Both the position numbers and the translations under genes were made by a program. A DNA stretch of 37,287 bases. It comes from Pseudomonadota bacterium. Its GTDB lineage: Bacteria; Pseudomonadota; Alphaproteobacteria; Acetobacterales; Acetobacteraceae. Below, one piece after another: positions 34,039-37,254 of the stretch. The stretch spans positions 1 through 37,287 of the forward strand of contig JAKAZY010000004.1 in NCBI GenBank assembly GCA_021826425.1. The letters are read 5' to 3'. The number at the start of each line of letters is the position of its first letter. Positions within the stretch are counted from its first letter, which is position 1. The notes under the pieces were generated by a model. The model was not told the DNA's origin. It saw nothing but the letters and a program-made list of their open reading frames with translations, and did no database searches.

Positions 34039-35544
34039 CTATTGAATAACGGTCTGCGACTCTCTCCCGAGCATCAATGCCAGACGATCCAGCCGCCGCA
34101 GCACGGCATCCCCCGCGAATACGCCGTTCGCCGCCGCCAGGCTAAGCACCAGCCGGTCTTGCGGCAGGGTCAGCTCGGTTCCCGCCAGCAGATGCGGCGT
34201 ACCGGCGGAAAGCGTATAGGCCAAGCGCAAAGCGGTGCCCAAGGTATCGGCCCGCTGTGCGGCCTGCATGTCCAATAGCGCGCGGGCGGGTGCAAGAAAC
34301 CCAGCTTCGGGGGGCGCATCATAGCGCACCGCCGTCGCCAGCGCCAAATACGCCCTAGCATGATGGTCCAGGCTCATCCCCGCCTGACGCATCACGCGCA
34401 TGAACGCCTGCTCGGCCCGGTATTCAGGGTGTTCATGGCTGCCGATATCCGAGAGCCAGCAAGCCGCCTCGCGCAGGCGCTTCTGGGCGACAGTTTCGCC
34501 GGAGAATAATGGCGCCGTCCAGGCCACCAGGGCCTGCGGCAGATTGGCATCGCGCACCGTCCCGCGCACGAGGTCCCTTGAGGCCGCGAGCAGCGGGTCT
34601 TCGGCGCGGATTTCCGGCGGCAATAGGCGGGAAAACCAGCCCTCCCGTAAGCCATTGGCCGAAAACACTACCCGCGCAGCACCCGTGGCGCGCAGCAGAC
34701 GCCGCAAGATTACCGCCGCATAGGGCAGATCCTCTATGCGTTTGCGCGGCACACCGGGCAGCCGTTCGATCAGCTTACGCCCGCCCTCGCTGAGCACCCC
34801 GGCAAGATCGCGCGCCTCTTCACGATTGATTGTGTAATGGTGAACGATGTTCAGCGGGTAACCGGTCTGCGCGATATGGATGCGCGCCAGCGCCCGGAAG
34901 GCGCCGCCGGAGAGGTACAAATCCTTCCCCGCCGCTTCCGCCGCGAACGGCACATCAGCGAGTGCCTCGATCATCACCGTGCGGGCGCGGGCGATATCCT
35001 CCCCGGCGCGCTCGGCGAGGCGGATAACGCCCACCGGCAACGTCACCGCCTGACCCACTTTGCCGGCATCGAGCCTAATCAGCTCCAGCGAACCACCGCC
35101 GAGATCAGCCAGCAGCCCATCCGCGCCAGGAATGCCGCAGAGCACGCCCTCGGCCGAAAGAGTTGCCTCCTCCTCGCCGGAAAGCACCGAAACCCGCAAG
35201 TCCGGCAGGCGTTTCATGATCGCCTTCACGAAGGCCGCGCCGTTCTCGGCATCGCGTACGGCCGAGGTCGCCAGCACATCAACCGGGCTCGCCCCCATGG
35301 CGCGGGCAATGGCGGCGTAGCGGTGCAACACGGTTTCAGCCTGGGCCAGCGCGTCATCCTTCAGCCGGCCGGTGCTGGTCATGCCCTTGGCCAGGCGCAG
35401 CACGGCCTTCTCGTTGAAAATCTGCATCGGGTTGCGCAGCTCACCCTCGTAGATCACGAGCCGTACCGAGTTTGACCCCAGATCGACCACAGCCCGGCGG
35501 AACGCCGGGCGAGCCTGGTGGCCGGAATGGGTCACCTGATCCAT
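34039..35544 (-). CDS. Ppx/GppA family phosphatase
   Basis: AVVDLGSNSVRLVIYEG, LATSAVRDAENGAAFV, LSGEEEATLSAEGV, LLADLGGGSLELIRL. Confidence 0.93.
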   Translation of the reverse strand: MDQVTHSGHQARPAFRRAVVDLGSNSVRLVIYEGELRNPMQIFNEKAVLRLAKGMTSTGRLKDDALAQAETVLHRYAAIARAMGASPVDVLATSAVRDAENGAAFVKAIMKRLPDLRVSVLSGEEEATLSAEGVLCGIPGADGLLADLGGGSLELIRLDAGKVGQAVTLPVGVIRLAERAGEDIARARTVMIEALADVPFAAEAAGKDLYLSGGAFRALARIHIAQTGYPLNIVHHYTINREEARDLAGVLSEGGRKLIERLPGVPRKRIEDLPYAAVILRRLLRATGAARVVFSANGLREGWFSRLLPPEIRAEDPLLAASRDLVRGTVRDANLPQALVAWTAPLFSGETVAQKRLREAACWLSDIGSHEHPEYRAEQAFMRVMRQAGMSLDHHARAYLALATAVRYDAPPEAGFLAPARALLDMQAAQRADTLGTALRLAYTLSAGTPHLLAGTELTLPQDRLVLSLAAANGVFAGDAVLRRLDRLALMLGRESQTVIQ

Positions 35545-35587: not shown

Positions 35588-36670
35588 TCATGACTGATGC
35601 ACAGCCTGCGCGCCAAGGTCCAGGCGCAGCAGCACCGCATCATCGCCATCCTCGTAATAGGCGTTTCGCAAACCACATTGCACGAAGCCAAACTTTTCAT
35701 AAAGCGCGCGCGCCGGGTCATTGCCGCGCGCCACTTCCAGATACACCGCGCCTATGCCCCCGGCGCAGAGTCTGCGCAAACCTTCGCGCAGCAAGGCAGC
35801 GCCTATGCCCTGGCGCTTTGCCAAAACACCCAAGGTTAAAATCTCCGCCTCGTCCAGCACCGCACGCAGCAGAATGAACCCGCTGGCGTCATGCGTCAGC
35901 GCCAGCACACCCGGTTGGCGCAGCAACGTGGCAAACGCCGCCTCGTTCCATGGCTCATGCGCAAATGCCAGCTTGTGCATCGCCGCCAAGGCGGCGGCAT
36001 GGGCGGGGCCGGCCTCGGTAATCGGGTTCATGAAGGGGGGGGGTCGTAAGCCCGCGGCCGGCAGCTTGGCCTCGGGCGGGTCCACATAAAGCGGCACCGC
36101 CGCACCCGGCGCCTGCCCTTCGGCCTTTTGCTTCAGCGCCGCGCAGCCAACCCAGGCAGCGTCGACCAACCGCGCGCCGGTCAGCATCACATCCGCCCCC
36201 TTGGCGGCGAGATATGCCGCCACAAGGGCTGCTTCCTCCCCGGCAATGGCCACGGGCATGGATGGCACGGGCAGGGCGTCATCCGCAAATGCCTCCGCTT
36301 TGCCCTGGCGCAGCAAAAACAACCGCCCGCGCCGGGCGCGAATGCCAACCCAGAGCGGGCGTGGCAGACCTGGCAGCGCCTGTGCATAGGCAGCCGCTGC
36401 CGTAACGCCCCACAGCGGCACCCCAAGCCCGGCGGCAAAACCCTGCGCCAGCGCGATGGAGGTCCGCAGCCCGGTAAAACTGCCCGGCCCGGTACAGATG
36501 GCGATATCGGTGATGGCTTGGCTGTGCGCTGCCTCCTGCAACAAGAGCGGCAGGGTTTCGATCAAGCCCGGCTTCAGCTTCGCGGTCCAGCTTCGCAGCA
36601 CCACCCCATCCGCCGCCAGCAACGCCAGCCCGGCGCGCGGGCCGGAGGCGTCTAACGCAATCAGGCTCAC
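35588..36670 (-). CDS. TsaB (tRNA t6A biosynthesis) fused in frame to RimI-like GNAT acetyltransferase
   Basis: N-part ICTGPGSFTGLRTSIALAQGFAAGLGVPLWGV (TsaB); C-part from MNPITEAGPAHAAAL...LTLGVLAKRQGIGAALLREGL...YEKFGFVQCGLRNAYYED (RimI); junction at C9 tract (36035-36043). Confidence 0.88.
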   Translation of the reverse strand: MSLIALDASGPRAGLALLAADGVVLRSWTAKLKPGLIETLPLLLQEAAHSQAITDIAICTGPGSFTGLRTSIALAQGFAAGLGVPLWGVTAAAAYAQALPGLPRPLWVGIRARRGRLFLLRQGKAEAFADDALPVPSMPVAIAGEEAALVAAYLAAKGADVMLTGARLVDAAWVGCAALKQKAEGQAPGAAVPLYVDPPEAKLPAAGLRPPPFMNPITEAGPAHAAALAAMHKLAFAHEPWNEAAFATLLRQPGVLALTHDASGFILLRAVLDEAEILTLGVLAKRQGIGAALLREGLRRLCAGGIGAVYLEVARGNDPARALYEKFGFVQCGLRNAYYEDGDDAVLLRLDLGAQAVHQS

Positions 36671-37254
36671 GCGAGTTCAGCCGCCTCCTCAAAGGCCAGG
36701 CGCGGCAGGCGCGGCGGCAAGGCTTCATCTGGCTTGGGATGGCCGAGATTGATGAGGAAATTCGACCGCCAGTTCTTTTTCGTGAAGAAAGCGCGGTCCA
36801 GCTTGGCGCGGTCGAAACCGGACATCGCCCCGGTAGCAAATCCCATCGCCCTTGCCGCCAGCATGAAATACGCGCCCTGGAGGGAGGAGTTGCGCATCGC
36901 TGTTTCCTCCGCCAGGTCCGGATTACCGGCAAACCAGGGCTTCACATCCATGCCGGGGTAAAGCTCGGGCAGTTTGAGGTAGAATTGCGGGTCGAACGCC
37001 ACCACAACCGTAACCGGGGCGGCGGCAACGGGCTCTATATTCCCGGCCGAGAGGCATGGCCGCAGCAACGCCTTACCCTCCGGCGTGCGGATGAACAGGA
37101 ATCGCGCGGGCGAGCAATTGGCCGAGGTCGGACCCATTTTCGCCAGCTCATACAGCGCGCTCAGCGCCTCGTCTGAAACCGGTGCATCACTGAACCAGGA
37201 ATGGGTGCGCGCTTTGCGGAACAGCGCATCCAGCGCCGCGTCATCCAGAGCCAT
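36667..37254 (-). CDS. malonic semialdehyde reductase / nitroreductase family protein (RutE-like)
   Basis: FRKARTHSWFSDAPVSDEALSALYELAKMGPTSANCSPARFLFIRTPEGK, RutE/HadB-type nitroreductase. Confidence 0.87.
   Translation of the reverse strand: MALDDAALDALFRKARTHSWFSDAPVSDEALSALYELAKMGPTSANCSPARFLFIRTPEGKALLRPCLSAGNIEPVAAAPVTVVVAFDPQFYLKLPELYPGMDVKPWFAGNPDLAEETAMRNSSLQGAYFMLAARAMGFATGAMSGFDRAKLDRAFFTKKNWRSNFLINLGHPKPDEALPPRLPRLAFEEAAELA

Follow-up and report, generated by a model that had tools for sequence, protein, structure and literature searches.

The open reading frame (ORF) that appears to fuse TsaB to RimI in this genome of the Acetobacteraceae is very probably an ordinary overlapping tsaB/rimI pair, in whose assembled sequence a C run at the end of tsaB is one base too long. 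Two origins of this base deserve serious weight. A consensus error in the long homopolymer has about an even chance, and a real variant private to this genome, arising by replication slippage, has a substantial but smaller one. The data fit error and slippage alike. As far as the sequence allows us to judge, free TsaB and free RimI, made as two separate proteins, would most likely be the normal state here.

The fused frame hinges on a run of nine C

The window, by which we mean the whole 37,287-nt stretch of DNA analysed, is contig C13 of a draft genome of 1.84 Mb, assembled in 155 contigs and 80.8% complete. The features of the locus are collected in Table 1. On the minus strand, the junction reads GGC TTA CGA CCC CCC CCC TTC ATG AAC CCG, exactly as given in the original prediction, and a single ORF of 360 codons ahead of its stop joins TsaB and RimI through the nine C (C9). 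The fused seam is RPPPF-MNPITE, so that the two domains are joined without any added linker. The TsaB model TIGR03725 matches residues 4-196 of the 360-aa product with 81.7 bits, above its cut-off of 69.3. In the rimI part, TIGR01575 matches residues 226-347 with 79.3 bits, slightly below its cut-off of 86.4, and PF00583 matches above its own; by their domains, the two halves thus correspond to ordinary tsaB and rimI genes. The GTGA overlap that had been noticed between tsaB and the gene upstream is also present.

Table 1. Features of the tsaB-rimI locus in the window
Feature	Position	Strand	Basis
Apparent fused ORF TsaB-RimI, 360 aa, GTG start	35588..36670	-	ORF and domain matches
tsaB body up to the C run (t6A synthesis subunit)	36044..36670	-	TIGR03725 above cut-off; protein 77-83% identical in nearest congeners
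C9 homopolymer, one base longer than predicted by the conserved two-gene frame	36035..36043	-	Sequence, alignment, frame computation
ATGA with the RimI start; TGA out of the tsaB frame at C9, in frame at C8	36028..36031	-	NTGA overlap in 29/36 congeners
rimI (bS18-alanine N-acetyltransferase), own ATG start	35588..36031	-	TIGR01575 79.3 bits (slightly below cut-off), PF00583 above cut-off
Nitroreductase-family gene, upstream; GTGA overlap with tsaB at 36670-36667	36667..37254	-	PF00881
ppx/gppA-family gene, downstream	34039..35544	-	PF02541

We computed the reading frames for other lengths of the tract. At eight C, the upstream ORF has 213 aa and ends in LRPPPS*; its stop begins 1 nt downstream of the A in the RimI ATG, giving ATGA, and the computation thereby reproduces the RPPPS* end and the stop/start overlap that had been predicted for this length. 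With C7 or C10, the upstream ORF continues in another frame to a stop 74 nt beyond the RimI ATG. At every length computed, the body of TsaB is intact, and so is the RimI ORF when read from its own ATG. At the assembled C9 the frame is open through the end of tsaB, and a stop at that end appears at C8; it counts against the extra-C explanation that C8 is itself a deduced length, never observed.

This arrangement suggests how one base could be enough to create a fusion. In the usual layout, the RimI ATG begins one base before the tsaB TGA, and an insertion of one base just upstream takes the tsaB frame past its own stop and into the rimI frame. Because ATGA puts rimI in the very frame reached by a +1 shift, the fusion would be the automatic outcome of one extra base.

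tsaB and rimI are separate genes in the congeners

Of 37 further genomes in the genus, 36 have the locus, and we compared all 36 junctions for the tsaB stop and the rimI frame. tsaB and rimI are separate in every one of them. Stop and start overlap as NTGA in 29 congeners (21 ATGA, 6 GTGA and 2 TTGA), and in the remaining seven the rimI start abuts the tsaB stop or comes a few bases after it. No C run of at least eight was found at the seam among these 36 junctions. The nearest congeners end TsaB in LRPAPV* at GCCGGTATGA, and the C8 version of the window yields this conserved end, LRPxP plus one residue, followed by ATGA. When the window was aligned by MAFFT with its seven nearest congeners, the sole gap near the seam was of 1 nt and fell at the C run, directly behind CG; one surplus base in the window would be its natural reading. 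The window therefore resembles the congeneric overlapping pair in gene order, in the LRPxP end of TsaB and in the ATGA at the RimI start, and differs from it in the extra base of the C run, which makes the frame miss the tsaB stop. All of this argues for an extra C, and an indel, one of the options put forward in the original prediction, is strongly supported, since the congeners fit the C8 frame.

That the ORF represents an established gene fusion, selected in this lineage, is extremely improbable. Fusions of rimI and tsaB have been reported in Bordetella and Mycobacterium leprae (PMC4926160), which speaks for such an event, and the window shares with them the presence of both domains in one ORF. 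Its join differs from theirs, as far as they can be compared by report, in hinging on a homopolymer and in being common to no congener. With 0 of 36 congeners fused, an established fusion is contradicted at the level of the genus, and independent relatives with a C9 fusion and an identical linker, set beforehand as the finding to count against the original prediction, were looked for among these 36 congeners and not found. A recent fusion, also raised there, survives solely as a private +1 mutation; such a fusion, private to the species, has room to exist because even the closest of the congeners shares only about 82% identity in TsaB. Since fusions have been reported, even a true TsaB-RimI fusion here would not be new in kind.

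A slippage-prone toggle, the third option, would mean that the slippery C tract makes the population, or else the ribosome, alternate between a fused TsaB-RimI and two separate proteins. We consider it very improbable. The tract is long enough for slippage, but the seam retains a C run in none of the 36 congener junctions, whereas a phase-variable (contingency) homopolymer locus would be expected to conserve its tract; a conserved contingency tract is ruled out by this absence. The genome as a whole also holds fewer long C/G runs than modelled (see below). A toggle would moreover switch little, because TsaB and RimI are intact at every tract length, and a conserved or selected toggle finds no support. 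In E. coli, tRNA-Pro(UGG) has been associated with +1 and +2 shifting on CCC-CG (PMC4519876), and we infer that this may have a bearing on the C9 seam: if C9 is real, a fraction of the ribosomes might shift by +1 while reading the proline codons and terminate at ATGA. A more elaborate version, in which a single cell line uses the slippery C9 to produce the TsaB-RimI fusion in frame and, when the ribosome slips by +1 or the tract contracts, free TsaB as well, tying t6A synthesis to S18 acetylation, has next to no probability in our judgement.

Homopolymers and reading frames elsewhere in the genome

The C9 tract is the sole homopolymer of at least eight in the 37-kb window and the only place where a frame is departed from. 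A first-order Markov model leads one to expect about 0.8 C/G runs of at least nine in the window, so that the length of C9 alone is unremarkable. Congener ORFs were mapped on the window, and about 25 other genes with congener homologues proved to run in one frame throughout, with neither a frameshift nor, for real genes on their coding strand, a split alignment among them, in agreement with a local surplus base at the seam. Genome-wide, about 23 distinct C/G runs of at least eight are present, fewer than the approximately 130 expected from the Markov model scaled from the window.

We judged 22 C/G runs by codon bias, and twelve of them also by translation. Most assessable runs of 8-10 in the genome keep frame, several of them inside coding sequence, such as the C9 of a queG-like gene and the C10 of a thiG-like gene; since these two are in frame, homopolymers are not always miscalled in this assembly, which weighs against the extra-C explanation. 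On the other side stands a C8 in an autotransporter gene (contig C81:7808-7815), which breaks the frame by +1: its open frame is of 373 aa, versus mostly 839-957 aa in relatives, and in all eight relatives compared the frame continues through the site. A surplus base is thus found in two of about 10 assessable runs (tsaB-rimI and autotransporter), both times as +1, and the two would fit occasional consensus homopolymer errors or real slippage alike. The autotransporter gene may be a pseudogene or encode a phase-variable surface protein, or the shift may be a consensus error. A TonB-receptor-like gene with a frame change at a C8 (contig C8:21722-21729) was left out of the count because it has further in-frame stops and looks decayed. 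At another C8 (contig C103:15977-15984), a transporter-like and a DnaA/Hda-like gene meet, and the run is followed by an intact ATGA overlap, which is the layout that tsaB-rimI would show at C8.

If the extra C is purely an artefact of sequencing or assembly, the true sequence in the cells is C8, with two genes. We hold this to be about an evens case: the draft state of the genome in many contigs, the singularity of C9 in the window, both as a homopolymer and as a frame departure, and the second +1 at the autotransporter C8 favour it, but most of the assessable runs being in frame weighs the other way. Homopolymer runs were the source of most indel errors in a resequenced 454-based genome, the technology of which may differ from that used for the window (PMC5552945). 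In the GeneTack survey, unclustered frame transitions were attributed mostly to indel mutation or sequencing error (PMC3711429). The window is like such singletons at homopolymers in that a C run has changed by one base in one genome only, and it differs in the effect of the shift: no gene is broken, and two are joined.

Long C runs are subject to mutation by slippage. A real +1 mutation private to the strain, which would then truly encode one TsaB-RimI polypeptide without regulatory meaning, is a tentative reading of appreciable probability. It may be nearly neutral because both domains are intact at C9, and the fusions known from other bacteria lend it some plausibility; the lack of any fused congener and of any linker added between the domains tells against it.

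Other apparent fusions in the family

We searched 250 genomes of the family and, among the places listed, found two further unbroken TsaB-RimI frames, in genomes G197 and G162. In G197, the fused ORF crosses a short stretch that is duplicated to the left and right of an N. This looks like a scar of assembly, and we do not take G197 as evidence for natural fusion. G162, a one-contig genome of another genus, carries one inserted T shortly before the seam relative to G083, in which the protein is 90% identical and tsaB and rimI are separate; this T also alters the conserved LRPxP end of TsaB. Given the single-T difference from G083, we do not take G162 as an established fusion. Both cases look like local sequence accidents and so weaken further the notion of an established fusion, and the G162/G083 difference, in which one base fuses the same gene pair, agrees with an extra C in the window.

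Implications for the annotation of fusions

The fusion ORF most likely reflects an error in the sequence or a one-base mutation private to this genome, and not a new kind of protein. The main value of the case is as a caution for the annotation of gene fusions. An ATGA overlap with one extra homopolymer base upstream gives a clean-looking fusion ORF, and therefore a gene fusion that occurs in a single genome and has a homopolymer at its seam is no proof of a protein fusion. The pair G162 and G083 carries the same warning, as a one-base difference at a different spot leads to the same fusion.
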